64,000 bases of DNA from Nitzschia sp. DOCU1 (taxonomy: Eukaryota; Bacillariophyta; Bacillariophyceae; Bacillariales; Bacillariaceae): NCBI GenBank assembly GCA_951394045.1, contig OX595998.1, positions 992,001 through 1,056,000 of the forward strand, given 5' to 3'. Below the pieces are notes generated by a model. That model ran no database searches. It was given only the letters and a program-made list of their open reading frames with translations, and was not told where the DNA came from. Both the position numbers and the translations under genes were made by a program. Below are positions 34,440-51,804 of this stretch, one piece after another (the stretch's first letter is position 1; the number at the start of each line of letters is the position of its first letter).

Positions 34440-36674
34440 ATGGCGATCATTGATCCCGAAGATATCATTGGCCGGACCTACCTATCTGTTCCTGCCGAGG
34501 ATGGAACTCGTCTCCGTCTGCGCATCACTGAAGCCCTTGAACGGATCGACCGCGACATAGAGTCGGCGGAAGAGGTAGTTCAGTTCCGCGCTACGAGTTC
34601 TGATGGCTCCTACGAAGAGATCCAGTCTTATAATCAGATACTGGATAAGCTGGAACAAGCCGACGGAACGGATGAGGTGTGGAAGTTTCGTTCTATCGAT
34701 GGACATCAAGGCCCGCTCACCAAGGCAGATCCTAATTATAAGGGATCCAAATGGAATGTCCGGGTAAACTGGGAGAACGGGGAGGTTACTTATGAGCCCC
34801 TCTCCATTATCGGCAAGAGCGATCCTGTCTCGTGCGCTATCTATGCGAGCAGCAACAATCTTCTTCATCTCAAAGGTTGGAAACAGTTTGCTCGGCTCGC
34901 GCGACGACAAAAGAAATTGTTACGCCTCGTCAACCAGGCGAAACTACAGTCTTTCCGGACAGCGCCTAATTACAAGTTTGGAGTTGAAGTCCCGCGCAAT
35001 CACCAACATGCGATGGAACTCGACCGACGTAACGGGAACAACGCTTGGAGAGAAGCCGAGTTGAAAGAACTCGGGCAAATAGACGAGTACCAAACGTTCA
35101 CAGACTGTGGCGTGGGAACTGCTCCCCGCGGCTACAAGCGTATACGATACCATATCGTGTACGATGTCAAGCATGACCTACGACGGAAGGCAAGGTTGGT
35201 AGCCAATGGCAACCAAGCTCCGACTCCTATCTCAAGTGTGTACTCGAGCGTGGTATCGTTGAGAGGCCTACGGATTTGTCTGTTTCTTGCAGAATTGAAC
35301 GAGCTTGAAACATGGACGACGGATATCGGTAACGCCTATCTAGAGGCAACTACTGACGAAAAGGTCTATGTAGTAGCTGGTCCTGAGTTTGGCGATCGAG
35401 AAGGCCACTCATTGATCATCTCCAAGGCACTCTATGGGTTGTACTCTAGCGGAAAAATGTGGTGGCAGAGGCTCAGCAAAGTTTTGACCGAAATGGGGTT
35501 TGTTCCGTCGAAAGCGGAGAACGATATTTGGATGAGACGGAACGGCGACCACTATGAGTACATCGCGAGGTATGTGGATGACTTGGCGATATCTTCGAAG
35601 CGGAATCAAGAGATCATCAACGAGCTAGTCAACAAGTTCAAGTTTAAGTTGAAAGGGACAGGCCCTATTGCTTATCACCTCGGAGCAGATTTCTTTCGAG
35701 ACGGAGATGGCGTTTTGTGTATGGCGTCGAAGCGCTACATCGAGCGGATGTGTGAGACATACAAGCGAATCTTTGGTGAAGGGCCAAAGCACAAGTACCA
35801 CTCACCACTCGAAAAGGGAGATCATCCTGAATTGGACAATTCTGAGGAGTTGGGCGCCGAAGGGATCAAGATCTATCAGTCTCTGATCGGAGCCGCACAA
35901 TGGGTAATTTCCCTCGGTCGCTTCGATATCGCGACGGCGATTATGACGCTATCGAGTTTTCGGGCCGCCCCGCGCGCCGGTCATTTAGACCGTCTGAAAC
36001 GAGTTTATGGCTATATCTCGAAAATGAGATCGGGCGCTATTCGGTTTCGCACGGAGATTCCGGACTATTCCGGTGTTACCGTTCCTGAGTACGACTGGGC
36101 CACAACTGTGTATGGAAACGTCGAGGAGCTGATTCCGGAAGACGCGCCGGAACCGCTAGGTAAACCTGTTGTTACTACGACATGGTTTGATGCAAACCTA
36201 TGCCACGATCTGAGCACCGGGAAATCAGTGACTGGGATTCTGCATTTACTTAACAAGACTCCTATCGACTACTTCTCGAAGAAGCAGCCGTTAGTTGAGA
36301 CTGCGACGTTCGGTAGCGAATTCATGTCAGCCAGGCAAGCTACGGAGCAAGTCATGGATCTTCGAAACACTCTTCGCTACCTAGGAGTGCCGATTCGAGG
36401 AAAGTCCTGGATGTTTGGCGACAACAAGACCGTTTGTGACAGCGCGTCGAAACCTGCAGCCAAACTCACCAAACGACACGTGATCTTATCGTATCATCGC
36501 GTGCGGGAAGCTATCGCTGCTGGCATCATTGCGCTACTGCACGTACCCGGCAAGCACAACCCCGCCGACATTCTCTCCAAGGCGTGGGGATATACGGATA
36601 TCTGGCGGATGCTGAAAGTCGTGTTGTTCTGGGAAGGAGACACTAGCCCCCTGGCGGAAGAGGCTGAAGCCTAG
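34440..36674 (+). CDS. pol: reverse transcriptase and RNase H (copia)
   Basis: 744 aa from ATG at 34440, in phase with the upstream protease-integrase frame. Reverse transcriptase shows the catalytic YVDD in EYIARYVDDLAISSK, preceded by WTTDIGNAYLEA and YGLYSSGKMWWQRL. RNase H shows WFDANLCHDL, ATFGSEFMSARQA and FGDNKTVCDSASK. This part is intact. It could copy RNA if produced, but it depends on the damaged upstream frames. Confidence 0.93.
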   Translation: MAIIDPEDIIGRTYLSVPAEDGTRLRLRITEALERIDRDIESAEEVVQFRATSSDGSYEEIQSYNQILDKLEQADGTDEVWKFRSIDGHQGPLTKADPNYKGSKWNVRVNWENGEVTYEPLSIIGKSDPVSCAIYASSNNLLHLKGWKQFARLARRQKKLLRLVNQAKLQSFRTAPNYKFGVEVPRNHQHAMELDRRNGNNAWREAELKELGQIDEYQTFTDCGVGTAPRGYKRIRYHIVYDVKHDLRRKARLVANGNQAPTPISSVYSSVVSLRGLRICLFLAELNELETWTTDIGNAYLEATTDEKVYVVAGPEFGDREGHSLIISKALYGLYSSGKMWWQRLSKVLTEMGFVPSKAENDIWMRRNGDHYEYIARYVDDLAISSKRNQEIINELVNKFKFKLKGTGPIAYHLGADFFRDGDGVLCMASKRYIERMCETYKRIFGEGPKHKYHSPLEKGDHPELDNSEELGAEGIKIYQSLIGAAQWVISLGRFDIATAIMTLSSFRAAPRAGHLDRLKRVYGYISKMRSGAIRFRTEIPDYSGVTVPEYDWATTVYGNVEELIPEDAPEPLGKPVVTTTWFDANLCHDLSTGKSVTGILHLLNKTPIDYFSKKQPLVETATFGSEFMSARQATEQVMDLRNTLRYLGVPIRGKSWMFGDNKTVCDSASKPAAKLTKRHVILSYHRVREAIAAGIIALLHVPGKHNPADILSKAWGYTDIWRMLKVVLFWEGDTSPLAEEAEA

Positions 36675-37354: not shown

Positions 37355-37389
37355 TACATCAGGAAAGGGAAAATAATGGGGTACCCATA
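37355..37389 (+). repeat. Left terminal inverted repeat
   Basis: 35 bp starting TACATCAGGAAAGGG and ending GGGGTACCCATA. It is the reverse complement of 51770-51804 with one mismatch (position 22). The next 250 bp inward are C-rich on this strand with recurring CATTTTCCCC, mirrored by G-rich sequence at the right end. Confidence 0.9.
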
Positions 37390-37934
37390 AGTATTCCCCA
37401 ATTTTCCCATACATATAGTCATTTTCCCCCATATCTATAGCCATTTTCCCCCTCCCTATTGCCCTCGTTCCCCAAAGTATGGAGGATCCCATTCATCATT
37501 GCTCTCATCTCATTCAGAAATGCCCATTTTTGCCTTCACGATAGCCCCACCCCCTCTTTGACCTCCACATTTGCCATTTTCCATCCAGCCGACATCCAAC
37601 AACTAACCAACCCCTAATTGTTAACCCTTACTACTCCCTTTTGAATCTCGGATCCCACCATTCCCCACTGTCACCCCGTCCCTCTACAATTACTTGCGAC
37701 TCCATCTAAACTTACAACGCATGAAGGTGCCCCACTCATCCTACCCCAATGCTCCATGCACCCCAATCCTCCTGGCATCCTTGCCATTCACGACGGATAC
37801 ATTTGGCGTCACCTTTTTTTCCATTACCAACACCAAATTCCAACGTCATTTTGATTGCAGCACCAACGCCCAAATATTTGAATTTTTGCCTTGCCCAACA
37901 AGCCCCCTCCTCATTATTTGAAACATCCACCAAA
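37390..37934. other. Left subterminal region of the DNA transposon
   Basis: 545 bp, strongly C-rich over G on this strand, with several short ATTTTCCCC-like direct repeats near the end. This is the usual place for transposase binding sites. It also serves as promoter of the PIP-box gene. Confidence 0.55.
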
Positions 37935-38222
37935 ATGAAGACCAAAAAGCGGAGTTCAACTTGGTCGCCACCTCCCATCCCCAAGCTACGCCCCATCAAT
38001 CTTTGCGAACCTCGACGAGCCGAATGCCGTAACAAAGTTCACTGCGACTGTATCGTATGCTGGCGCGAAGTGCGCAAACTACCACCTAAGCTAACAGATG
38101 ACGAACTCAAAGCCAAAGAAATTCTAGAGATCACTGAACGTCTCAACAAGAAGGCCAAGAGAGACGCCAAACGGGCTGTCAAGAAGGGCACCCAATCCTC
38201 AATCCTGTCCTTTTTTGGTTAA
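37935..38222 (+). CDS. Small Cys-rich protein with C-terminal PCNA-interacting (PIP) box
   Basis: 95 aa from ATG at 37935 (context CAAAATGA). An in-frame ATG at 37749 would add 62 unremarkable residues. The basic start (MKTKKRSS) fits nuclear import. A cysteine cluster C-x6-C-x5-C-x-C-x2-C (residues about 25-43) may bind zinc. A helical, Lys-rich segment follows (DDELKAKEILEITERLNKKAKRDAKRAVKK). The last residues are TQSSILSFFG, an exact match to the PIP-box rule Q-x-x-I-x-x-F-F, placed at the extreme C-terminus as in many replication and repair proteins. It may tether the element's machinery to replicating DNA. Its stop lies 42 bp from the stop of the convergent dioxygenase-like gene. Confidence 0.65.
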   Translation: MKTKKRSSTWSPPPIPKLRPINLCEPRRAECRNKVHCDCIVCWREVRKLPPKLTDDELKAKEILEITERLNKKAKRDAKRAVKKGTQSSILSFFG

Positions 38223-38264
38223 CTTATATTACCAATAATCAACTATAGCACATCACTAGAAATT

Positions 38265-39272
38265 TTATTCTTCACTATTAGTATATCTCAATTCTTCATC
38301 GCCGTGAAAAAGCAGCACCAGGCGTTTTGCTGGCATCTCGTCCCCTTCCCATGCCGCCGTCCCATGTTCCAATTCAACTGCATCAAGCAGAAGAACAGAC
38401 CCTACATCCACGGAACATTCCCTCTCCTTTGGCATGTTCCCCCTTTTTCCTCTCGGTGGCTTCAACCTTATTGATGCACAGCTCTTCCCTCTGTCGTACA
38501 ACATTGGTATCCAAAATACCACGGGATATTTGCCGCCAGGACCCACTTCCTTCTTGTTGTATCCCAGCACATCGTTGTGGAGAGCTCCAGCACTTTTATT
38601 CCTTGGACCGGAATTCACTACTGTGACATCCACGAAACGTTTTTCCTTCCAGCCCATACCAGCCAACAACCCTTCACAGAACGCACCCAAGACCGGACAC
38701 TCTTGTCCCAACTTTTCCACTTCCACTCCCTCAAACATCAGATATGTAACGATCCTATCGTCGAATTTCCAGGTCGTGTGAATCGGCTTACGTCCCCTTA
38801 TCAACTCCATGCTCAAATTCTTCATGAAAACAAGGTCTAACACCTTGTGAAGATGGATGTACCTTCGCACTCTCCATTCCTCCTCCCAATCACTCCAATG
38901 GCGCCATTTTCTGTTCTTGCCTGTCCCCACAGGTGTGGTACATCGAATCTTTTGCCGAAACTTCAACACCGACGCCAGATAATTGCCGGCAAGATACCCC
39001 ATCTCTGTCTTTGCCTTACTTTTTTCCTCCTCCTTTTTCGACACTTCCAAAGTCTTCACTCTCTTTGCATTTTCACGGTTCCATCTGACTCGCCGGCTCT
39101 TATCTGTGATTGTGGACAATTCCACGAACTCCACCACATCTTTTCGAGCAAACGGCATTACCTTTAAAGTTTCCAAACTTTTACTCCGAATTTTTGTTGC
39201 CATCCAACCTTTCAATGCCGTCGCACACCTCTTCGAGTTTTGCACGTACTTCAGCACAGTACCCTTCATCAT
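38265..39272 (-). CDS. Putative 2-oxoglutarate/Fe(II) dioxygenase, TET/JBP-like
   Basis: 335 aa from ATG at 39272; the frame runs 12 codons further to a GTG, inside array sequence. The C-terminal half has the expected double-stranded beta-helix signature. An HxD motif in ALHNDVLGYN (His232, Asp234) is followed by hydrophobic strands (YPVVFWIPML), a distal His in VELEHGTAAW (His303) and an Arg 14 residues later in AKRLVLLFHGDEE (Arg317). TET enzymes have a similar His-to-Arg spacing and a comparable end strand. TET/JBP enzymes oxidise methylated or thymine bases in DNA. The N-terminal half is basic and may bind nucleic acid. The fold is a motif-based inference; AlkB-like or prolyl hydroxylase-like families remain possible. 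Confidence 0.6.
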   Translation of the reverse strand: MMKGTVLKYVQNSKRCATALKGWMATKIRSKSLETLKVMPFARKDVVEFVELSTITDKSRRVRWNRENAKRVKTLEVSKKEEEKSKAKTEMGYLAGNYLASVLKFRQKIRCTTPVGTGKNRKWRHWSDWEEEWRVRRYIHLHKVLDLVFMKNLSMELIRGRKPIHTTWKFDDRIVTYLMFEGVEVEKLGQECPVLGAFCEGLLAGMGWKEKRFVDVTVVNSGPRNKSAGALHNDVLGYNKKEVGPGGKYPVVFWIPMLYDRGKSCASIRLKPPRGKRGNMPKERECSVDVGSVLLLDAVELEHGTAAWEGDEMPAKRLVLLFHGDEELRYTNSEE

Positions 39273-39277
39273 AGCCA

Positions 39278-39674
39278 CACTGTACCCTCCATTCCGCCTT
39301 TTTAACACGCCTGCATAGCCGCACTGTATCCTTCATTCCGCCTTTTTAACCGTTCGTTTTGTTAAGAAAACGCCTCGATTTGCCTTCATACCCGCACTGT
39401 ATCCTTCATTCCGCCTTTTTAACCGTTCGTTTTGTTAAGAAAACGCCTCGATTTGCCTGCATACCCGCACTGTATCCTTCATTCCGCCTTTTTAACCGTT
39501 CGTTTTGTTAAGAAAACGCCTCGATTTGCCTGCATACCCGCACTGTATCCTTCATTCCGCCTTTTTAACCGTTCGTTTTGTTAAGAAAACGCCTCGATTC
39601 GCCTGCATACCCGCACTGTACCCTTCATTCCGCCTTTTTAACCGTTCGTTTTGTTAAGAAAACGCCTCGATTTC
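39278..39674 (+). repeat. Left 73-bp tandem array in a divergent promoter
   Basis: Four full 73-bp units start at 39330, 39403, 39476 and 39549. A fifth, partial unit starts at 39622 and ends near 39674, where the sequence diverges. A shortened unit lacking its middle precedes them (39278-39329). Each unit contains TTAAC-N10-GTTAA, followed by AAAACGCCTCGATT. Units are near-identical. The array lies between the start codons of the dioxygenase-like gene and the 1565-aa gene and is the inverted homologue of the array at 48842-49755. Confidence 0.95.
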
Positions 39675-39801
39675 GGCAGCCAGTCATTCCAGACATCGTC
39701 AGTGACCCAAAACAAAATCATCCCCTCTCTCCTGCTTTTTATTGTTGTTTCCTTCATTCGTCCTTTTTCATCCAACGCAGTCGGTCCTTTCCCGTTCAAT
39801 C

Positions 39802-42800
39802 ATGGAATCAGGGCGGCCATGTTTAACCAGCCGCAACAAACTTTTATTTCCCTGCTCCATTAATGGTCCAAATTTCGTCCAATTTTCGTCGCCCCTCTAC
39901 CAGGCAATCGCGGCCTTCTCCTGGTCCGACGATGAGATATGCAAGGCCCTCACTCATCTACTGGGAGTGGGTATAGTGATTCGAGTCCGCTATCACTTCG
40001 TTGCCTCCGTCGAAGGTGGATTGTTGTTTGATGTCGGACTATCTGACAATATTCCACAAGAATCCATTGATTCGATCCCAGATGAGAAATGGTTTCCCAT
40101 TTTCTTGGATAATTACAATCACCAATTGCAGCAGTTAAACCCACCAGGAGAAAGGAAAAAAAAGAGACGGCGTCGGAAAATCGCGCCCAAATCCCAGTCC
40201 GAATCTGACTACGTATCAAACTTGCTGCTCTCTGGCTCTTTGGTGACACTACAACCCACTTTGCTCCCGCCCCTTGTTACACCACCCTCGATCGTTCCTC
40301 CCCCCCTTTACCATGACGGGCCAGAGGCGCACTTACCCTCCATAACGAAACTACTGGAATCTGTCGAAGACGAGTTCGACGACCCAACAATTTACTCCCC
40401 GGACAATGATTGCACCATCGATAACAACATCGCCGAGGTGCAGCCACCTACTCTTGCGGCGATGCTGGAATCTGTGGACAGCGAGTTCTACCAATGCCGG
40501 GAGGAAAACGTGGTCGGCGACGCTAGCATCGATGGCGACGCTCACGTTGACCATGACAGCATCGAGGAGAAAGGCGACGACTACCACTCAGGGGATGATG
40601 ACCCAACAATTTACTCCTCGGACGATGATTGCGCCATCGATAACAACATCGCCGAGGTGCAGCCACCTACTCTTGCTGCGATGCTGGAATCTGTGGACAG
40701 CGAGTTCTACCAACGCCGGGAGGAAAACGTGGTCGACAGCGAGTTCTACCAACGCCGGGAGGAAAACGTGGTCGGCGACGCTAGCATCGATGGCGACGCT
40801 CACATTGACCACGACAGCATGGAGGAGAAAGGCGACGACTACCACTCAGGGGATGGCGACCCAACAATTTACTCCCCGGACGATGATTGCGCCATCGATA
40901 ACAACATCACCGAGGTGCAGCCACCTACTCTTGCGGCGATGCTGGAATCTGTGGACAGCGAGTTCTACCAACGCCGGGACGAAAACGTGGTCGGCGACGC
41001 TAGCATCGATGGCGACGCTGACCATGACAGCATGGGGGAGAAAGGCGGCGACTACCACTCAGGCGATGACGGGGGTGTGTGCAACAAATGCGATGACGAT
41101 GACATCTTTGGGGACTGCGAGGACAACGAGGAGGCAACAACGACGTCCCTGTTCAAATTGAACTACCTAATGCAGCGCATCAAGTCCAATGCTTCGAGTA
41201 AAAGACTCCTCTTTCTCTTCATGCGCCAAGAAGAGAAGATGTCTTCCCATACCCCGGCAGAGATTGTCGCGACGGCCTGCAAAAAGTCACCTTCCCTGCT
41301 ATCGTTGCACAGGGACATGGCCCGTGTCAACTGCGCCAAATCGTTCGGTTTCGAAGTGCATACGCTAAGCAGGCAGTCTACTGACCACTCGGACCACGTT
41401 TCTTTTGATGTTGGATTGTCGGTGGAGCACTCGGCCTCCAGAAAACTGCCAGCCGCCTTCACTGGCTACTTCCAAGTCTGCTGTGATGTCATCTGGATGC
41501 CAGCTAGCTACGAGGACCAGATCTACAGCTCCTCATTCTTCAATCGCTTCCTGCCCAGCCTCCTACCGCGCCTTTCGCCGGGAGGTTCGATCCACTTGCC
41601 GGCAACGCCACACGTCTTTTTGGGCCTGATTCGAAGCGGATTGGTCAAAGAGGGTGCTGGCTGTCTTGTCCAGTTTCTTACACCAGACTTGGTGGCGGCC
41701 GAAAATATCTTGGCAATCGTTGGAGAGGCCTATGTCACAAAAGGAAACTTGGGAAAGCACCCGCCCAGTGCCTACTACTTGCAGCCCCACTACGGATTGT
41801 CTTTCCAGCAATGTCGGAACATTTGTGGCGGATCGGCAGATATCCTTGCCTTCCACCCCGGGAACTATAGGCGAGATCCAGATCAAGGGGAGCCCAGGGT
41901 GGTCGCCTTGGTGATCAAGCGACGACTACCAGAGAAGCGCCTTCCTGGGCTTCGTCCAAGGGAGTGGGTCCGACTTACGCAGGATAATTTCGACGAAGAA
42001 AGTCAGCAGGAGACCGCAGAGAATGATGACGATGATTGGATAGAGGGAGTGGATGGAAGAGGGTTGCCGTCGAGACGGGTGTCCAACCTTGCCCGCGAGA
42101 AAGCCTCAAGTCGACAAGTATTTATGAAGCTGATGAGTCTCGATCAGGTGGGTCCGTGCCCCGACAATTGGACCCACACCGTCATCATTTTTCCGCGTGA
42201 AATCTCATCACAACTTTCAAGCCCGTCGGTGTATTCCAAGCTGCGTCTTCATCAACCATTGTCCATGAAGTCATTTTTCCGTGAAGAAATGGTCGCCGTG
42301 CAGAAGGGGCCATGTCAGCTCGTGATGAGCTTTGGACTGCGGGTTGCTCCGCATGGTGTGCTTGGTACGGCAGGTCTTCGTGCATTGGCCCAAAAACTCA
42401 AGTTCGAGATTAAGTTTCTCTCGAATGTGGTCGATCATCGGTATGATCCGGCGTTGCCCTACCAACCAGTTGTTGTCAATACAACCGAAGGGGCCGCCGG
42501 TTATGATCGTTCTTTGCCCCTGGTCGAAATTGGCTTCCCCAGGGAGTGTTTTGGGCTCGACCTGCTGTCGACCTTCCGACGAATTTGCGAGATGGGATAC
42601 GAAAAGGGCTTCCTCGACCTCATCGTCGAGTATGGAACAAAGGACAGTCGTGGGCCCTTCGTCACCTGCCACATGGGCCCAGCAGTTCAAGACGCGAATG
42701 GATGGATACGCAACAACGATGTTTCGGTCGCGATTCCAGGTTTGTACGCGTCGACCGCCCGGGCACCGAGGGCGTTTCGTGAGTGGAAAAGGCTGTTGAA

Positions 42801-44499
42801 CCTTGTCTTGACAGATGGCATGATCCGTCGTTTATTGAGTGGAACCGACCGTGAGTCTCAGGGTAAATTGACGGTGGAGGAAAAACAGGTAGCGAGCGAG
42901 TTCTTCTACAACTACTTGATGCTGGATCCAACGACATTGGATAAATTCATCTTCTCTCCTGGAATGACCGATGGGATCGGGGATTCTGGTGTTCATCTGG
43001 ACACAATGAATGCCGTGGAGACTCTTCACGACCACAACAACTGGGGGATCTATTACCACGAGGACCTGGGACACTGTTTAACGGATGACTCAATAAAAAA
43101 ACTACGGTCTATTCAGATGAACACGACAAACAAGTTTTCTATCCATCTTTGTTACAGTCGCTTCATTATCATGAGCCAAGCGAGGAAGTTGATGAACAAG
43201 GACGCCAACGTCTACACTTTGGCAATGATGGAAGCTGGGGATCAAGACCATGAGTTGTCCTTGGGGTGGCTGGGGACTGCAAGGCATGAACGTTTCCTTC
43301 GGTACTTGAGAGACCCGCTCAATAGATACGACTTCAAAACGTGTTGTGGAATTGCAAGGGCGACTGTTGTCAAGGAAGGTTCGAACCGTGATCTATTTCT
43401 GGGAACAGCAGCTTATTGCTGGTTCCGCCTATTAGATCGTTACCCGACCCTGAAGTGGAGGCACTACGACGAGTACTGTGCCGTGGTCGCAAGAGAAGTC
43501 AACGGAATCATTTTGCTGGTGCAGGTGACGGAATTCTTCCTAGAGTCCGATGTGGGTCAACGAATGTTTCGGGAAGAGTTGGTTGAGAATGACCAAGCCG
43601 GGCGTCTATTTCGGGTATTCAGGGTCGCCATGATGCGGCATGACGACAAAAGGCGGAGCTTGGAAAAGCCGCGGGGCTCGGAGCAAAACCGGTGGGTCGT
43701 TTCGGGTTCAACGATATACAGGGGGGACCACGACATGGAGAAGGTGGTTGCCTTTGTTAGCTTCGTGACCGAACAGTTCAAAATTATTCGGCACTCCACT
43801 GACTTGGCCCAACAGGTTGGTGTCTGTGAAACTATCGTTGACAAGAGATTGCGGAAGGGATTGGTGGCGGACGGAATCTTCGACATGTCGGACGTTCGGG
43901 GAACTTTCCTTGTGCACCTGGCAGCTTTCATCCAGGCCATTCCTCCAACTTTTGCTTCTTGGGCTTCGATCAAGAAACCGGACGGAAAAATTTCGAGGAC
44001 TAAAGGAGCTGGCTGCTACCGCTTTGTTAATAACATCATGCGGGACGCCTATCCGTCACGGTATGCCGAGAATTTGAGCACCGAGCAAGTGCGGTCGGTG
44101 GTTGACGGGACTATTGGGGAGTTGATCAAATCGGGGCGGCAAGTGGATTATGCCTTCATTGACCAGAACGGTTGTCTGAATGCAAGGAGGATGTTTTCGA
44201 CAGATGGAACGGACAAACGGAAGAATGACCTGGTATTTTTCCACCCCGACGGGACAATGTTCCTGCCGATTCAATCGCACGTGTTATCCTGCATGAAGGA
44301 AAGTGGCCTTTCGCGACGAGCACTAAGATTCTTTGTCAAGGATAGGTGGTTCCCGTTGACAGACTACCGCGCTCCAGTGCCGCTTACTGGCCTCGATGAC
44401 TGCGCAACTCGTAGCAAGTCTTGGAGGTACGGCACTATGAGTGAATTCCGCCGAGAACTTTTGCTAGGGCAAGATGGAGAACTGAGCTCAGTTGTTTGA
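39802..44499 (+). CDS. 1565-aa transposon protein with acidic repeats and possible methyltransferase-like region
   Basis: Read from ATG at 39802; the frame opens at a TTG at 39742. A basic patch (ERKKKRRRRK) lies near residue 120. Residues about 194-425 are three copies of an acidic 73-aa repeat (PTIYSPDDDCAIDNN..., LAAMLESVDSEFYQRR...). Residues about 530-705 read like the late strands of a Rossmann methyltransferase: DVIWMPASYED, then FFNRFLPSLLPRLSPGGSIHLPATPHVFLGLIRSGLV. The SAM-binding loop is not evident, so this is weak. The remaining 860 residues are globular (for example YYHEDLGHCLTDD and GWLGTARHERFLRYLRDP) and unrecognised. Size and conservation of the open frame imply a needed function, perhaps a second large subunit of the transposition or modification machinery. 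Confidence 0.75.
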   Translation: MESGRPCLTSRNKLLFPCSINGPNFVQFSSPLYQAIAAFSWSDDEICKALTHLLGVGIVIRVRYHFVASVEGGLLFDVGLSDNIPQESIDSIPDEKWFPIFLDNYNHQLQQLNPPGERKKKRRRRKIAPKSQSESDYVSNLLLSGSLVTLQPTLLPPLVTPPSIVPPPLYHDGPEAHLPSITKLLESVEDEFDDPTIYSPDNDCTIDNNIAEVQPPTLAAMLESVDSEFYQCREENVVGDASIDGDAHVDHDSIEEKGDDYHSGDDDPTIYSSDDDCAIDNNIAEVQPPTLAAMLESVDSEFYQRREENVVDSEFYQRREENVVGDASIDGDAHIDHDSMEEKGDDYHSGDGDPTIYSPDDDCAIDNNITEVQPPTLAAMLESVDSEFYQRRDENVVGDASIDGDADHDSMGEKGGDYHSGDDGGVCNKCDDDDIFGDCEDNEEATTTSLFKLNYLMQRIKSNASSKRLLFLFMRQEEKMSSHTPAEIVATACKKSPSLLSLHRDMARVNCAKSFGFEVHTLSRQSTDHSDHVSFDVGLSVEHSASRKLPAAFTGYFQVCCDVIWMPASYEDQIYSSSFFNRFLPSLLPRLSPGGSIHLPATPHVFLGLIRSGLVKEGAGCLVQFLTPDLVAAENILAIVGEAYVTKGNLGKHPPSAYYLQPHYGLSFQQCRNICGGSADILAFHPGNYRRDPDQGEPRVVALVIKRRLPEKRLPGLRPREWVRLTQDNFDEESQQETAENDDDDWIEGVDGRGLPSRRVSNLAREKASSRQVFMKLMSLDQVGPCPDNWTHTVIIFPREISSQLSSPSVYSKLRLHQPLSMKSFFREEMVAVQKGPCQLVMSFGLRVAPHGVLGTAGLRALAQKLKFEIKFLSNVVDHRYDPALPYQPVVVNTTEGAAGYDRSLPLVEIGFPRECFGLDLLSTFRRICEMGYEKGFLDLIVEYGTKDSRGPFVTCHMGPAVQDANGWIRNNDVSVAIPGLYASTARAPRAFREWKRLLNLVLTDGMIRRLLSGTDRESQGKLTVEEKQVASEFFYNYLMLDPTTLDKFIFSPGMTDGIGDSGVHLDTMNAVETLHDHNNWGIYYHEDLGHCLTDDSIKKLRSIQMNTTNKFSIHLCYSRFIIMSQARKLMNKDANVYTLAMMEAGDQDHELSLGWLGTARHERFLRYLRDPLNRYDFKTCCGIARATVVKEGSNRDLFLGTAAYCWFRLLDRYPTLKWRHYDEYCAVVAREVNGIILLVQVTEFFLESDVGQRMFREELVENDQAGRLFRVFRVAMMRHDDKRRSLEKPRGSEQNRWVVSGSTIYRGDHDMEKVVAFVSFVTEQFKIIRHSTDLAQQVGVCETIVDKRLRKGLVADGIFDMSDVRGTFLVHLAAFIQAIPPTFASWASIKKPDGKISRTKGAGCYRFVNNIMRDAYPSRYAENLSTEQVRSVVDGTIGELIKSGRQVDYAFIDQNGCLNARRMFSTDGTDKRKNDLVFFHPDGTMFLPIQSHVLSCMKESGLSRRALRFFVKDRWFPLTDYRAPVPLTGLDDCATRSKSWRYGTMSEFRRELLLGQDGELSSVV
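40381..41070 (+). repeat. In-frame coding repeat, 219-bp period
   Basis: Units begin at 40381, 40600 and 40858 with GACCCAACAATTTACTC. The first period is 219 bp (73 codons). The second unit carries an extra 39-bp internal duplication (DSEFYQRREENVV), giving 258 bp. The frame is kept throughout. Confidence 0.9.
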
Positions 44500-44559
44500 T
44501 GATGCATCGATGTTTGTGAACACAGAATAACTCTAGGAAAGTTCATGTAGAAACAAAAG

Positions 44560-45062
44560 TTGTCTTACAGGCGAAAGGCGGACTAGAGGATACAACGCAA
44601 GACCTCACCCAAAAAGGACGACCTAGAGCTACAGGGGCCATATCGCTGTCCCAGCGAAAGGCGGACTAGAGGATACAACGCAACACCTCACCCAAAAAGG
44701 ACGATCTATAGCTACAGCGGGAGACCTCACGCAAAAAGACGGACTAGAAGATACAACGCAACACCTCACCCAAAAAGGACGATCTAAAGCTACAGCGGGA
44801 GACCCCACGCAAAAAGACGGACTAGACGATACAACGCCAGTTCCCACGCAAAAAGGACGATCTAAAGCTACAGCGGGAGCCCCCACGCAAAAAGGCGGAC
44901 TAGACGATACAACGCCAGTTCCCACGCAAAAAGGACGATCTAAAGCTACAGTTGCCTGTCACCGCTGTCCCAGCGCAAAAAGGACGACCTAGAGCTACAA
45001 CGACCTAGAGCTACAGCGGCCGTGTCGCTGTTTCACCAAAAGGCAGGCTGTAGGATACAACG
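44560..45062 (+). repeat. Central tandem array between convergent transposon genes
   Basis: About five units of 78 bp, each made of two related 39-bp halves: one with AAAAAGGCGGACTAGACGATACAAC-like and one with AAAAAGGACGATCTAAAGCTACAG-like text. Copies are less uniform than in the promoter arrays. The core AAAAAGGC...TAGAGG.TACA.CG resembles part of the right-array unit, so the arrays may share an origin. It sits between two stop codons (44499 and 45134), where a terminator or 3' UTR element would lie. Confidence 0.8.
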
Positions 45063-45133
45063 TGGCCCCTTACTTGGCTTAATAGTTGAGCTAGTAACTT
45101 GGAAAGGTACAATAGTTTTAGAGTAAAGAATCG

Positions 45134-48100
45134 CTACCACGGAGAGTCCATAGTACGGGAGTATGTGTGTGCCCAGTAGCTTTTGCGGTCTCTTACGTAT
45201 ACTATATTCTTGGATTGTGTAGATGTTTTGCCAGCTGAAAGGTCTATATATGACCGCAATTGAGAAAACTCTTGCACAACCAAAATTCGTCGTTTAATCT
45301 GAGATGGGTGGCAAAGCCTGATCACAGGTCGCAGAATTTGCCTTGGCAAAGATTGGCCATCGTCACGAACATTTAGGTCGTCATCTAGCAGAGGCGGCTG
45401 TATAGTACACTGCCCGTATTCGAGATCCCAAGTTTCGGTCAAGGCAGTTTCAGTTGCTGAGTCTTCGACTGTTGAGTGAATGATACACTGTACCTTAGGA
45501 TTGTCGATTGTGTGTTCCTCTTTTAGGGGATCATACCCTGGATTGCAAATAATTCCAAGCAACCGAACAGGAAACCAACCGGCGGGCGTGGTTCCTTCGT
45601 ATTTTCCAGAAATGTTTTTGTGTGGGGGGAAAGGGTGACCCGGCTCGTTAAAATCCACCAGCACCCAGTCGTACCACTGTTTCCCCCGGTAGAATGGATG
45701 GCATCTGAGCCTACGGTACTCGCCATCTCTGTCGTCCACCACGTACAACTCTGTGTAGCCTTCAACCCATCCGTCGTCAAAGAAGGATAGTATACTTTCG
45801 ACCACGAGTTGAGGCATCTCCATTGAAACATTGCTTTTCTGTCGACCGCTCCAGATGCACTGCTTCAACTCGTTGTTGGACACCTCAAGCCCCCACTGCA
45901 CTTGGCTCTGGAATATCTTGAAGCCAAGTCCTTCCAGTGCAACTTGCGTGAGTTTTGGTAGCTCGGAGGTTGTGTCCTCCAACTCGCCCTCACTATCCTG
46001 TTCATCGGAAACATCGAGGTAATCAAGGAGAGTCGTTTCGTACACACGGTCAGCTATGGTCTCGCTGAAGTCATGACGATTGTCATGGGCAACCTGTGAA
46101 GTTTTGCTTGGATTTTTTCCATAAAATTTTAGCATCCTTTCCCCCCAATCGGCAATGTACTGATATGGGAACCCGAACATTGTCATGTTCCTGGGCATGT
46201 GCAGCAGCTCGTGAAACTTTTGAGTGGCCCACCCGCTACCGGCCCGGCGGGGAAACCTCTCTAGGATCATTTTCTGTAGATGCCCAATACGAAGCCGCAG
46301 TAGCATTTCTTTTGTTGAATCCCAGTTCAAAATGTTCCCAGGGTCCACTGCCAAACGCGGATTACGACCATTGGTGGCAAATGCATGAAGCATTAGTATC
46401 TCCTCAAATAGTTCTATCACCTGCTCAACTGTCACCTCCACCAGCGGCGGCAATTCGACCACATCTCCCCTGTTGTCTAACTTGGTCCGCTTGGCGGCAG
46501 CATCACCCTCTCTCGCGCGTTGTGCCAACTCCCTAGCACGGGAGCGGGTAAGACACTGCTCCATCAAAGAAGAGCCACGTTGCGTGCGAAGTAAAACAAC
46601 AGACATCAAAAGAGTCCCCACCCACTCCCTGGCAGATAACAAGGTGACAGATGTGATGCCATTGGAGAAGTAGATTCTTGGAAATGACTTCTTCTCCCCC
46701 GACGTTGTCGCACCGAATATATGAGATGCCTCTATGTCCAGTCGGGCGCACTCACTCGCAGAAAGGGGGGAAATCAGAAGGGAAAACATGGTCTTCATTA
46801 TCGTCATGAAGATATGCATCAAGTCATGTGGTAAGGGCAACGATGCCTGTCCCCCAATATCTACATCCCATAGACTACAATGACAAACGTGAGTGCAGAG
46901 ATGAGCCAACGTGTCTCTCGCTGCCGACACCTGCTCTCTTGTTGAATCCGGCGACAAAACTGCCTCCACGTGTGGCTTGACATCGTTGATTGTTACCTCA
47001 TGGCATTCTACGCCCGCCACTCCTGCGTTGGCCGAGGTAATGTCGCAGAAGCGTGATAATCTGGTTGAATGCTGATGCGAGGAATATCGACAAGCTTCAC
47101 AGTCCATTGCCTTGGCATCCCCACAGATGAAGGCAATTGGCATTCTAAGATAAACAAGACGAGCCTCATTTCCAATTAGAACAACTGTTGGTTCCTGGTG
47201 GAGCTCTTGTTGTACCTGCTGAATCTCTTCCAGGATCTTTGCCTGGCAAAGGTGGAAGTTTCTGACAGTGCGACCCTTTCCCTCTCGTGGGATGTTTTCT
47301 GCCCTCTTTTGTGCTTTGGTCCTTTTGTCGAAGTTGGGTATATAACCAATGGTCCGAATATACTTGCGACGATACCGCAGGTGGTGTTTCAAGATCCCAA
47401 AGGCAAGTAAGACTGGTGTCACGGATTGACGCTGGTTCAAGCTTGTGCCAATCTCGTCCCAGTAGATGATAATGGGGATGACCAGATCGAGTCCTGGGTG
47501 AAGAGATTCGCTCTGAATGTAGTCCTGCATGGCCTTCCCGGACAACACTTCGCCTGGCTGGGATTCAGCCAGGTTGACTTGGTTCCACCGATCAGCTGGG
47601 TTGACGACCAGGTTCCCTAGATTAGACATCGTTTTGAAATCCCGCAAAAGCAAGTTGACTGCATCCCTAACTGAGAACACTGTGATGTTGGTCGACTGTC
47701 GTGGGTGTCGGTTGTGTGACATGTCCTGTGGTCGGGACGACTCTATGGCGATTGGTACAGTCACAGGGTGCCTCATTGGGGACAGTTTGCAGAACTTGGA
47801 ATATAGAGATGTCGAGGAGTATGAAAGGAAAGCATCCGAGGAGAGGTCAACCCCTGCCGCGACCCCCTTCCTTAGCTCGCTCATCAATTGATCAAAGAAA
47901 TAGCGGGGTACACCAGGATGGCGGCATATACGGTACAACCGAAGTAGTAGTCTCTCTTCGGGAGTTCCCAAGTACGATATGTTGTTAGATTGTTCCCGCA
48001 GATCCTGTAAAGATAGTGTCGATGTAGGAGCGCTCAAAACCTGGAGTTCGGAGGTAGTCAACTGGCGTGAAACAAGGTTCAAAACGGATTGTCCAGGGGT

Positions 48101-48664
48101 CACTTGTGGGTGTGGTCGAACTACACACTCATCGTGCATCATGGGTGCAGATAACATTGGCTGCCCCCTTGTTGTAGAGAGGGGTGATGGGGAAGAGACT
48201 GGCGGTTGGTCGTTTGTCTGGAATATGACATACGAGCCCGACTCTAGAGCCGAGACGTCATCATCACGGATACCTAACAAATCAGCTTCTGGAGGTGCAG
48301 GAGGAGTGTGTAGAGAAAGTAGTTGTCGGGACGCTCTCGTCGACCTTCGAGTTTGGGAGGCATCCGCTGGGGCAGAATTAGAGGGTAGGTGCTGGTGTCG
48401 GTGGGTCCGTCGTACGGCCGCTGAGGCTGGAGAAGTTGGCGGTAAAGGTGATGTGCGTGGGTAGACATAAAGAATCGGGGGTGGGGCGTTTGTTGATCGG
48501 AGAACTCTCAAAGGACGACCGTTTGAGGAAGAGTCATCGTCCGAATTGGCGTGCAGAAAAGAAGGGGACTCATCCACACTTCCATCATCCTGCGGCGGTT
48601 GCGTGACAGAGGAAACACGGAGTCGTGTTCTATTCAAGGTTGCGTTGGACGGATTTCGGGGCAT
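45134..48664 (-). CDS. DDE transposase of CACTA/KDZ type
   Basis: A single exon encodes 1176 aa from ATG at 48664. The first 200 residues are disordered and rich in Ser, Pro and Arg. The catalytic core begins near residue 390 with LDLVIPIIIYWDEIGTS (Asp403). It continues with AFICGDAKAMDCEACRYSS (Asp516 and a Cys knuckle), LPLPHDLMHIF, and GWATQKFHELLHMPRNM...ADWGERMLKFYGKNPSKTSQ (Glu842). This layout (first Asp, GDAK with cysteines, HDLLH-like motif, late Glu) is that of the CACTA/Plavaka/KDZ transposases, seen in many unnamed diatom proteins. It would cut and rejoin the element's ends in the nucleus. The C-terminal 250 residues are unassigned. The gene is convergent with the 1565-aa gene. 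Confidence 0.82.
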   Translation of the reverse strand: MPRNPSNATLNRTRLRVSSVTQPPQDDGSVDESPSFLHANSDDDSSSNGRPLRVLRSTNAPPPILYVYPRTSPLPPTSPASAAVRRTHRHQHLPSNSAPADASQTRRSTRASRQLLSLHTPPAPPEADLLGIRDDDVSALESGSYVIFQTNDQPPVSSPSPLSTTRGQPMLSAPMMHDECVVRPHPQVTPGQSVLNLVSRQLTTSELQVLSAPTSTLSLQDLREQSNNISYLGTPEERLLLRLYRICRHPGVPRYFFDQLMSELRKGVAAGVDLSSDAFLSYSSTSLYSKFCKLSPMRHPVTVPIAIESSRPQDMSHNRHPRQSTNITVFSVRDAVNLLLRDFKTMSNLGNLVVNPADRWNQVNLAESQPGEVLSGKAMQDYIQSESLHPGLDLVIPIIIYWDEIGTSLNQRQSVTPVLLAFGILKHHLRYRRKYIRTIGYIPNFDKRTKAQKRAENIPREGKGRTVRNFHLCQAKILEEIQQVQQELHQEPTVVLIGNEARLVYLRMPIAFICGDAKAMDCEACRYSSHQHSTRLSRFCDITSANAGVAGVECHEVTINDVKPHVEAVLSPDSTREQVSAARDTLAHLCTHVCHCSLWDVDIGGQASLPLPHDLMHIFMTIMKTMFSLLISPLSASECARLDIEASHIFGATTSGEKKSFPRIYFSNGITSVTLLSAREWVGTLLMSVVLLRTQRGSSLMEQCLTRSRARELAQRAREGDAAAKRTKLDNRGDVVELPPLVEVTVEQVIELFEEILMLHAFATNGRNPRLAVDPGNILNWDSTKEMLLRLRIGHLQKMILERFPRRAGSGWATQKFHELLHMPRNMTMFGFPYQYIADWGERMLKFYGKNPSKTSQVAHDNRHDFSETIADRVYETTLLDYLDVSDEQDSEGELEDTTSELPKLTQVALEGLGFKIFQSQVQWGLEVSNNELKQCIWSGRQKSNVSMEMPQLVVESILSFFDDGWVEGYTELYVVDDRDGEYRRLRCHPFYRGKQWYDWVLVDFNEPGHPFPPHKNISGKYEGTTPAGWFPVRLLGIICNPGYDPLKEEHTIDNPKVQCIIHSTVEDSATETALTETWDLEYGQCTIQPPLLDDDLNVRDDGQSLPRQILRPVIRLCHPSQIKRRILVVQEFSQLRSYIDLSAGKTSTQSKNIVYVRDRKSYWAHTYSRTMDSPW

Positions 48665-48841
48665 TGATGAACTGGGAGTGCGGATGTAAGCAACGACTCG
48701 AAGATAAGGGATGGAAACAAAGTAAAAGAAAACAGAGGGGAGAATGTTTCTGAGCTGTGTGGCAGTGGTCGTTGGAGGTGGTAGGGCGGTTACCTTTTGT
48801 GAGACTTCTCTGAAGGGTGACTCGGCTGGCGTTTCCTTAAT

Positions 48842-49755
48842 GAAACGAACGGTTAAAAAGGCCGCATAGAGGGTACAGCGGGAGAATGCTGTACAATCGA
48901 GGCGTTTCCTTAACGAAACAAACGGTTAAAAAGGCCACATAGAGGGTACAGCGGGAGAATGCTGTACAATCGAGGCGTTTCCTTAACGAAACGAACGGTT
49001 AAAAAGGCCGCATAGAGGGTACAGCGGGAGAATGCTGTACAATCGAGGCGTTTCCTTAACGAAACGAACGGTTAAAAAGGCCGCATAGAGGGTACAGCGG
49101 GAGAATGCTGTACAATCGAGGCGTTTCCTTAACGAAACGAACGGTTAAAAAGGCCACATAGAGGGTACAGCGGGAGAATGCTGTACAATCGAGGCGTTTC
49201 CTTAACAAAACGAACGGTTAAAAAGGCCACATAGAGGGTACAGCGGGAGAATGCTGTACAATCGAGGCGTTTCCTTAACGAAACGAACGGTTAAAAAGGC
49301 CGCATAGAGGGTACAGCGGGAGAATGCTGTACAATCAAGGCGTTTCCTTAACGAAACGAACGGTTAAAAAGGCCACATAGAGGGTACAGCGGGAGAATGC
49401 TGTACAATCGAGGCGTTTCCTTAACGAAACGAACGGTTAAAAAGGCCGCATAGAGGGTACAGCGGGAGAATGCTGTACAATCGAGGCGTTTCCTTAACGA
49501 AACGAACGGTTAAAAAGGCCGCATAGAGGGTACAGCGGGAGAATGCTGTACAATCGAGGCGTTTCCTTAACGAAACGAACGGTTAAAAAGGCCACATAGA
49601 GGGTACAGCGGGAGAATGCTGTACAATCGAGGCGTTTCCTTAACGAAACGAACGGTTAAAAAGGCCGCATAGAGGGTACAGCGGGAGAATGCTGTACAAT
49701 CGGGGCGTTTCCTTAACGAAACGAACGGTTAAAAAGGCCGCATAGAGGGTACAGT
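48842..49755 (+). repeat. Right 73-bp tandem array in a divergent promoter
   Basis: Twelve full 73-bp units from 48842, plus the first part of a thirteenth (from 49718). Each unit has two dyads: GTACAGC-N8-GCTGTAC, and TTAAC-N10-GTTAA. Units are nearly identical, with a few single-base variants such as GGCCGCATAG versus GGCCACATAG. The reverse complement aligns to the left array over its whole unit length. The array separates the transposase start from the three-exon gene start. Confidence 0.97.
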
Positions 49756-49997
49756 GCGGTTATCGCCAGGATGAAAAGTTTGAAGAGGGAGCGGCGGCGG
49801 GTTGATTTTTGAACACAGGGAGCATTATCACCACACATAAAATGGGCGTGCCAGCGTCTGTAAGTGAGAGAGTTTGAACAGGAGACAAGAGAGGATGACG
49901 AGTGCGTGGTTTAAAAAGATTAGATGGTCGTCCTCGCAACAACCTCGGCGGTATCAAGAGTAGATGTTGCCACAAAGTAAGGCAAGGTATAGCGATC

Positions 49998-51314
49998 ATG
50001 ACAAGTGGGGCGGGTGCTGTACAGGAGAATGCTGTTGCAGCTGGGAGTGGCAGCAGCGGAGGAGCGTTCGATGTGGAAAGTTTCTTAGGCAGGTTGCCAC
50101 CTGAACAAAGAAGTCAATTAAGGAGAGCCTTAGCTGGAGGTATTGGAAATGCCACCAGCCAGGGGGGGGCGCCTGTGGGAGAAGTTGGCTTGGCGATGGG
50201 TGGTGTGGTTAGTACAACCTCGTCTATAACCGTATGTGAGAGGGACGACGCTAAACTCTTTACAGATCAGATGAAGAAGGTGTTCCGGCAGGTGAAGTTC
50301 ATTGATGATCGTGGTCTGCAACACGGCAAGTTGTTTTACGAGAAGGTGGTGGAGGCGATGGGGGGTGCGGTGGTAGGTACCGATGAGTGGTACAAGAAGA
50401 AGGGAGGTCTGAGAGCCAGGGCTTCTGCCAAGATAGTGGATCTGAGAGGAAATGTAACAAATCGACTAAAAGAGGCATTTTTAGGTAAGAGATGGCAAGT
50501 GGCCGAGTTGTGTTGCATTGGCCTTTGGAACTAACAAGCTTGGTGGAGGCAGCTCATTACCGTGTAAAAGAAGCAGAAGTTAGTAACGTTGATGCGGAAA
50601 ACAGTACAGAGGGGGATGTGGAGATGTTTGTGCCAAGTGAGTTGTGGGAGACTAGAAAGAATCCAACCCTGTTCAAGGTCATGTGCAGGCAGTATTTCCC
50701 TGCGGTGGTTTTTGGGAGAAAGGGCTCTTATGGCAGAAGAATGGCGAACGACCTGGTGAGCCAGGTATTGAACCCATCAGATGAGGCCTTTGTTTATCTC
50801 GTTTTGGAGAACAACTATGAGTACTGGAAGACCTTAGGGAGGGAAATGTAAGTTTGAATTGTGGATTGTGTCTGGTTGTAACTAAGAGAAGAATTGATGT
50901 AACTAACAACGTGACTGTGTTTTGTTAATTGGTAGGATTGATAGTGGAAAGGTTCAGTCTATGAGTATGAAGGAACGTGCCGTGCAGCCAAAATATACCC
51001 ATGCAAGGAATAGCAACAACATGAGTTGGAATCGTGCTGGAAAAGTGCGTTATGTGGAGTTTCTAAAAATGGTGATCAAGGATAGGAACAGGGCTGATGC
51101 CAAGGATTTGGAGTTAGAGGTTCGACAAGAGTGGCGGGATGCTAATGGAGGCAGGCGCAGGAGAGATAATCTGCAGGGGGAGCAGGAAGAAGAGATGTTA
51201 TCAATTCCAATAGTGGATGACGATGGGAATCCAGTAGACGTTGAGGTAATGGGGGAGCCATTGGTTGGAGCAGAGGAAGATGCATTGGAAAGGGCAGGCG
51301 TAATGGCTGTTTAG
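49998..51314 (+). CDS. Unknown 386-aa transposon protein, three exons
   Basis: Model: exons 49998-50484, 50553-50847 and 50936-51314, introns of 68 and 88 bp (donors GTAAGA and GTAAGT, CTAAC branch-like sites). The three exons add up to an exact reading frame. The start is low-complexity Gly/Ala/Ser. The middle is a folded domain (DAKLFTDQMKKVFRQVKFIDDRGLQHGKLFYEKVVEAMGG). A region with WETRKNPTLFKVMCRQYFP and NNYEYWKTLGREM follows, then SWNRAGKVRYVEFLKMVIKDR and an acidic tail. No family is recognised. Its position across the array from the transposase suggests a DNA-binding accessory or regulatory factor. The first intron acceptor was chosen to preserve frame. Confidence 0.6.
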
Positions 51315-51769
51315 AGTAACTGTTAGAAATGTTGAGGAAATTCATTAATGGACTGGGAATTTCTAATTGGGGTAGGGCGTAGTGAGTGACAGGGAGAGTA
51401 TAAAGAGGGAATGGCATTTGGTTGATGTGAACCCATTTGGAACTGGTAAGGGGATGGGGTAATGGTAGTGGGGGGCGGTAGTATGGGAGTAGAGTGCCAT
51501 TGAAAATGAAAAGTGTTGTGAGAAATGGTAAGGTAGTTCATAAGTTGTATTGTGGATTAGAGAGGGGTAAGGGTTGCCCAATGGAAGGACGGTATAAGAA
51601 TGGTTATTGCCATTTTTGAATGGTGTGCAAAATAGTGAATGGTGTGGCAGTTAGATAGGGGGGTGGGCCATAACTGCTGGTTAAGGGGTTAAGTAAGATT
51701 TGGGGGGATAATAATGGGTTCGGAGACCTCCCCACGGTGATGGCTATTTTGGGGGGTCCCGGGCATAGA
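51315..51769. other. Right subterminal region of the DNA transposon
   Basis: 455 bp, G-rich on this strand with repeated GGGG- and GAATGG-type words, mirroring the C-rich left subterminal region. No gene is seen. Probably contains transposase binding sites and the 3' UTR of the three-exon gene. Confidence 0.55.
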
Positions 51770-51804
51770 TATGGGTACCCCAATATTTTCCCTTTCCTGA
51801 TGTA
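51770..51804 (-). repeat. Right terminal inverted repeat
   Basis: The reverse complement matches 37355-37389 at 34 of 35 positions. Host sequence TTCCTAGTAATG follows. Only TA could be a target duplication. Confidence 0.9.

Follow-up and report, generated by a model that had tools for sequence, protein, structure and literature searches.

The window analysed here is a stretch of 64,000 nucleotides from the diatom Nitzschia sp. DOCU1 (C14:992001-1056000 in a 52.08-Mb assembly of 63 contigs, which are the contigs covered by the genome-wide searches), and it contains a DNA transposon with five genes on alternating strands (Table 1). Genes 2 and 3 diverge from a gap occupied by the left repeat array, genes 4 and 5 diverge from a gap occupied by the right array, and the middle array lies where genes 3 and 4 converge. 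An earlier note on this DNA, made from the sequence alone, had counted five open genes, and this count stands, gene 5 being read as one frame after removal of two inferred introns.

Ends, copies and repeat arrays

The transposon is a real, mobile, multi-copy DNA element. Its left 221 bp match at least 31 genomic places, a lower bound in which both end types and the window's own two ends are counted, and CATCAGG stands at the border in 20 of 20 fetched short end loci as well as at other listed ends (the end search used the word CAGGAAAGGGAAAATA, so that ends without it would escape detection). All 12 family-A copies (family A being that of the window) whose two ends could be paired are flanked by identical dinucleotides, namely TA, CA, TT, TT, TT, TC, AA, TG, TG, CC, TC and TC; in this tally, which is made of paired copies and leaves out those with a single end, the match reaches 3 bp in one copy and 8 bp in none. 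The shortest paired copy measures 1.5 kb and the longest about 16.5 kb. Further copies with the same ends, as anticipated by the earlier note, thus exist, and the idea that the inverted repeats face each other by chance is ruled out by the 31 end places and the 12 duplicated flanks. The note had given the element an extent of 14.45 kb, from 37355 to 51804, with matching 35-bp inverted ends: the transposon and its matching ends hold, but because the outer TA belongs to the target duplication the limits move inwards by one dinucleotide on each side and the inverted repeats measure 33 bp, with one mismatch, rather than 35.

Several shorter copies of 4-6 kb have the same ends (C11:1994349-1998967, C2:1460146-1466361, C13:785235-790386, C3:3066023-3071755 and C11:2196841-2201026). 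In the first four of these, the start of the transposase is kept (matches to its first 87-96 residues), and they are therefore probably non-autonomous.

Table 1. Features of the transposon and their positions in the window
Feature	Position	Strand	Description
Left target-site duplication	37355..37356	no strand	TA
Whole transposon	37357..51802	no strand	14,446 bp, CATCAGG..CCTGATG
Left terminal inverted repeat	37357..37389	+	33 bp, one mismatch to the right repeat
Gene 1	37749..38222	+	up to 157 aa; C-terminal canonical PIP-box QSSILSFF
Gene 2	38265..39275	-	dioxygenase-like, 336 aa; H233-x-D235, H304, R318
Left array	39309..39673	no strand	73-bp unit x5.0; gap holds the core CCTTTTTAAC x6
Gene 3	39802..44499	+	1565 aa; N-terminal third with acidic repeats; middle (about 41140-42006) methyltransferase-like; HxDxMN at residue 1065
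Middle array	44574..45015	no strand	78/39-bp units (to 44951) and a 16-bp pair at 44984-45015
Gene 4	45134..48664	-	Plavaka-type transposase, 1176 aa; D403, D516, C522/C525, H613/H617, E680
Right array	48828..49754	no strand	73-bp unit x12.7; gap holds GTTAAAAAGG x13
Gene 5	49998..51314	+	386 aa once two inferred introns (50485-50552, 50848-50935) are spliced out
Right terminal inverted repeat	51770..51802	-
Right target-site duplication	51803..51804	no strand	TA

The earlier note had also described three related repeat arrays. Three arrays are indeed present, and the left and right ones are inverted relatives (about 80% complementary), but the kinship does not extend to the middle array, which has only short words in common with them. 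In the diverged copy at C5:1432639 the unit of the left array measures 117 bp as against 73 bp in the window; despite this difference CTGTAYCC..CGCCTTTTTAAC is kept in the left arrays of both copies, and the right array of both holds its inverse. This fits an array core that would be a bound control element spreading by local exchange. In family B, a second family described below, the core words were not found in the two gaps tested.

Classification of the transposase and a second family

The earlier note placed the element among the KDZ (Kyakuja, Dileera, Zisupton) transposons of fungi and algae, which Iyer and colleagues are said to have described in 2014 as carriers of TET/JBP dioxygenases. 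Its identification of gene 4 as a DDE transposase is well founded, since the three catalytic residues align and a C(2)C and an H(3)H motif of Plavaka type lie between the second aspartate and the glutamate. Against the Pfam Plavaka profile (PF18759) gene 4 scores 21.6 bits (E 1.4e-4), which is below the curated cut-off of 26.3; two of its homologues among the transposases of this genome (E 1.3e-18 and 7.1e-12) exceed this cut-off, with 31.9 and 31.4 bits.

According to PMC12730594 (Kojima 2025), the interval from the second D to the last E holds C(2)C and H(3-4)H in Plavaka and other CACTA-like groups, PlavakaB termini read CATCA..TGATG with duplications of 2 or 3 bp, and Plavaka belongs with the CACTA-like elements, apart from KDZ, its earlier placement near KDZ being wrong. 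Such termini are found in family A (CATCAGG..CCTGATG) and in family B (CATCAGAG..CTCTGATG), and the duplications of all 12 paired family-A copies have such a length. By its ends, its duplication length and its transposase motifs, the window transposon thus fits the Plavaka type, CACTA-like and with PlavakaB-like ends. It resembles the KDZ transposons with TET/JBP genes in being a DNA transposon with an oxygenase-type gene; in the same source, however, Zisupton duplications are 8 bp long and KDZ transposases have no sequence similarity to those of Plavaka. Membership in KDZ is accordingly ruled out, both by the 2-bp duplications (8 bp in 0 of 12) and by the Plavaka-type ends and transposase.

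Family B was detected through its dioxygenase (7 places, 32% identity, E 8.9e-14). It is 15.6 kb long, and its proteins are 20-31% identical to those of the window family. Its layout, taken from one copy on C6 that was examined over the full 15.6 kb, consists of a 131-aa gene, a dioxygenase homologue (31% identity), a 1240-aa gene-3 homologue (27%, E about 1e-32), a transposase homologue (24%) and a gene at the gene-5 position, all in the same orientations as in the window transposon. An extra reading frame of leucine-rich appearance, below the Pfam cut-offs, lies between the transposase and the gene at the gene-5 position. Identical complete family-B places number 7 for the dioxygenase and 6 for gene 3, and the left end shows a single exact boundary in 7 different flanks; family B has therefore moved recently. 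As a distantly related family that keeps the core gene set, it suggests a contribution of the extra genes to the survival of the element. The proposal of a transposon with an expanded gene set is thus upheld, by the copies, the ends, the duplications and the core order in a second family; its TET/JBP and KDZ framing is not.

The left flank of the C6 copy (C6:479500-480219) belongs to a tandem repeat of about 1531-bp spacing, at whose end the copy sits and which recurs on C2, C4, C6, C9, C10, C15 and elsewhere. C11:2276277-2277094 and C42:13602-14419 hold a third lineage of dioxygenases, with 47-50% identity to that of family B, and a Plavaka transposase of another family (family E, C11:2255258-2258254) lies about 18 kb from the first of these. 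Pieces of gene 5 (53%) and of the dioxygenase (36-49%), in opposite orientation, form a remnant at C8:66263-67750 that represents a further diverged lineage.

Selection and predicted products of the accessory genes

Judged by the ratio of nonsynonymous to synonymous substitution rates (dN/dS) in comparisons of family-A copies, purifying selection acts on each of the five genes. The ratio, given here with its upper bootstrap limit, is 0.25 (0.46) for gene 1, compared over 96 codons with a copy on C11; for genes 2 to 5, compared with the diverged copy at C5:1432639, it is 0.30 (0.44), 0.23 (0.26), 0.12 (0.14) and 0.19 (0.30), the last value covering exon 1 and a few codons past the later inferred donor. 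Within gene 3, the block-wise ratio is lowest, 0.06-0.10, over the last ~600 aligned codons, and dS ranges from 0.29 to 1.29 along the gene, an unevenness that hints at exchange between copies.

In gene 2, the HxD..H..R signature noticed earlier proves to be conserved between families: its four residues are invariant in four aligned sequences from two families that are 31% identical to each other, and H233 and H304 are the only two histidines invariant across the four. A comparable pattern arose in 63 of 20000 column shuffles, a frequency to be read with spacing limits that were chosen after the pattern had been seen. As this motif is general to 2-oxoglutarate/Fe oxygenases and not specific for TET/JBP, its invariance supports a 2-oxoglutarate/Fe oxygenase and not any particular substrate, and the gene-2 product is a probable iron-dependent oxygenase. 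The gene is free of internal stops in 4 of its 8 family-A places and interrupted by a stop in the other 4.

The canonical PIP-box motif has the form Q-x-x-[ILM]-x-x-[FY]-[FY], and residues 149-156 of gene 1 have this form, as the earlier note had recognised, so that PCNA binding is predicted; the motif is found in the C11 copy as well. Relatives of gene 1 that are 73-94% identical, some of them broken or partial, are present in 7 other family-A copies. More distant ones (35-42%) are located at C1:2687579, C3:2882041, C7:2036617, C8:926761, C1:2744768 and C5:2805563, away from the located dioxygenase and transposase places, and possibly belong to further element families.

The middle of gene 3 looks by eye like a Rossmann methyltransferase (VxTxxR, DxIWMP, GGxxxLP) and has a counterpart in a gene that is not linked to the element (C9:1303594-1305200; 34% over 89 residues, E 5.9e-4). 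No methyltransferase or other Pfam family matched this region, and inspection by eye did not reveal the glycine-rich motif I of class I S-adenosylmethionine enzymes, where the window, family B and the C9 gene read FLFMRQEE, YIGMERPG and LLGISYPC respectively. The HxDxMN motif lies in a second conserved block. Within gene 3 of the window a 258-bp in-frame repeat (40477-40993) encodes acidic residues, and the corresponding place in the C5 copy contains a different, 93-bp, acidic repeat. For the non-transposase genes, Pfam, NCBIfam, PHROGs and PDB searches returned weak and unlikely matches only, and no relatives turned up in a viral contig collection (three alignments) or in a genome contig collection (one alignment).

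Possible role of the oxygenase-like gene

We give roughly even chances to the reading in which the element is an autonomous Plavaka-type cut-and-paste transposon with a gene-2 oxygenase that acts against silencing as an accessory function. The transposase would cut at the CATCAGG ends and insert with a 2-bp stagger. The gene-2 protein, as an Fe(II)/2-oxoglutarate oxygenase, would oxidise methylated bases or a silencing protein, so that the element stays expressed; the gene-3 protein, expressed from the same divergent gap, may cooperate with it, and the PIP-box protein may link the accessory proteins, or transposition, to replication forks via PCNA. Each of the two inverted arrays would serve as a common control region for a divergent gene pair, 2/3 or 4/5. 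Methylation is a plausible target, and methylation-based silencing a possible threat, because C5-methyltransferase matches occur at about 6 places of the host genome. By analogy with known elements, the conserved accessory module probably counters silencing.

The closest parallel is fungal. In PMC12730594, TET+ PlavakaB transposons are described from Agaricomycetes (Agaricus bisporus, Gymnopus confluens), and all fungal TET+ Plavaka elements have PlavakaB ends. They have in common with the window transposon a transposase of Plavaka type that contains C(2)C and H(3-4)H, CATCA..TGATG ends, 2-bp duplications and an oxygenase-like gene, and the transposon may work as they do, provided that the motif indicates the nature of gene 2 correctly. 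Their oxygenase, however, is a TET/JBP protein, whereas gene 2 has the general oxygenase motif and no TET/JBP profile match; their PE-type TET has HxE where gene 2 has HxD; and TET+ transposons are presented in that source with no further modification proteins (TET+ Harbinger having a third protein), whereas three more selected genes are present here. Outside fungi, the giant repeats flanked by Plavaka in Amoebidium (PMC11244446) are likewise large, multi-genic and associated with a Plavaka transposase, but they reach 50 kb and contain many tyrosine recombinases, and an oxygenase goes unmentioned in the part of that text available. Elements called EnSpm-Plavaka in the green alga Auxenochlorella (PMC12633428) are also Plavaka-type cut-and-paste elements of an alga, but accessory genes go unmentioned in the corresponding part of that text.

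Several results weigh against an anti-silencing oxygenase kept as part of a conserved module. The genome has no match to Tet_JBP (PF12851) at E<=10, and searches with the proteins gave none either; searches of gene 2 in Pfam, NCBIfam and PHROGs matched no oxygenase family, a PDB profile search of gene 2 found no oxygenase, and its single-sequence structure model, with a mean predicted local distance difference test (pLDDT) score of 35, is unusable, as that of the gene-3 middle failed with 41. TET/JBP identity as an established call has therefore been dropped. Since neither profile nor structure searches gave confirmation of TET/JBP, or of an oxygenase at all, we infer base oxidation and the escape from silencing from the motif and by analogy with the fungal elements. 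The CpG observed/expected ratio stands at 0.88 for the element and 0.64 for family B, as compared with 1.00 for two other stretches of the window and 1.20 for a copia-like frame, and so gives no sign of release from methylation-linked decay. In family B, the gene at the gene-5 position matches gene 5 weakly (E 0.004), the 131-aa gene has no detectable homology to gene 1 (E 0.60) in spite of its similar position, and the PIP-like QSTISQWL is internal and non-canonical; a common order of all five genes is thereby reduced to three clear homologues, a weak gene 5 and a gene 1 alike in position only. The C6 copy, the only one of that family with both ends examined, has unlike end dinucleotides (GA and TA), and a pattern search of the genome for its empty site gave 0 matches. 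The family-B transposase aligns GN where family A has GD at the second catalytic aspartate, even though identical copies of the family are numerous, which may reflect a misalignment or dependence on another transposase.

The first alternative, which we consider possible but clearly less probable, retains the same transposon and lets the gene-2 oxygenase act on a protein, a histone or RNA, in the manner of prolyl-hydroxylase- or JmjC-like enzymes, instead of DNA bases. Both the generality of the motif and the empty TET/JBP profile search suit this proposal; against it, the one close parallel that turned up, that of the fungal elements with PlavakaB ends, involves TET/JBP proteins (PMC12730594). 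It is rather doubtful that gene 2 encodes no oxygenase at all and has its motif by coincidence, as a DNA-binding or architectural protein for transposition: the lack of an oxygenase profile in the Pfam, NCBIfam, PHROGs and PDB searches would be explained in this way, but the only two invariant histidines over two such distant families fall on the metal-ligand positions, with the aspartate and the arginine in place. Still less credible is an AlkB-like role in the repair of alkylated or single-stranded DNA at excision or at replication forks; the general oxygenase motif and a PIP-box protein encoded by the same transposon, which would recruit the enzyme, are compatible with it, but no AlkB-family match was present among the Pfam results. 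Finally, a decayed, non-mobile composite of unrelated genes caught between chance inverted repeats, as the many broken or shortened relatives and the interrupted gene-2 places might suggest, is contradicted by the duplications in every two-ended copy, by purifying selection on all five genes and by seven near-identical family-B insertions in different flanks, and we regard it as practically discarded.

The anti-silencing reading can be extended to a more ambitious scenario, to which we attach only a low probability. In that scenario, a Plavaka-type lineage outside fungi would have kept a replication-coupled DNA modification module over a deep divergence, with the dioxygenase and a methyltransferase-like giant partner encoded back to back on either side of an array that controls both, and with the PIP-box protein recruiting them to the forks, so that new copies would be rewritten before maintenance methylation.

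In PMC12730594, complete oxygenase-bearing DNA transposons are characterised from three fungal lineages, and the words diatom and stramenopile are absent from its text, with no such case described; among the matches listed in a narrow literature search on Plavaka transposons, no title named a diatom. If gene 2 encodes a base oxidase, PlavakaB-type ends and an oxygenase would be combined outside fungi, together with more genes, through shared ancestry or through an independent capture. As two diverged families reside in one genome, with copies that have the genes and copies that lack them, the effect of the accessory genes on methylation and activity is directly testable. The copia-like open frame mentioned above lies directly upstream of the transposon (window 34440-36674), and was judged by eye to encode a reverse transcriptase.

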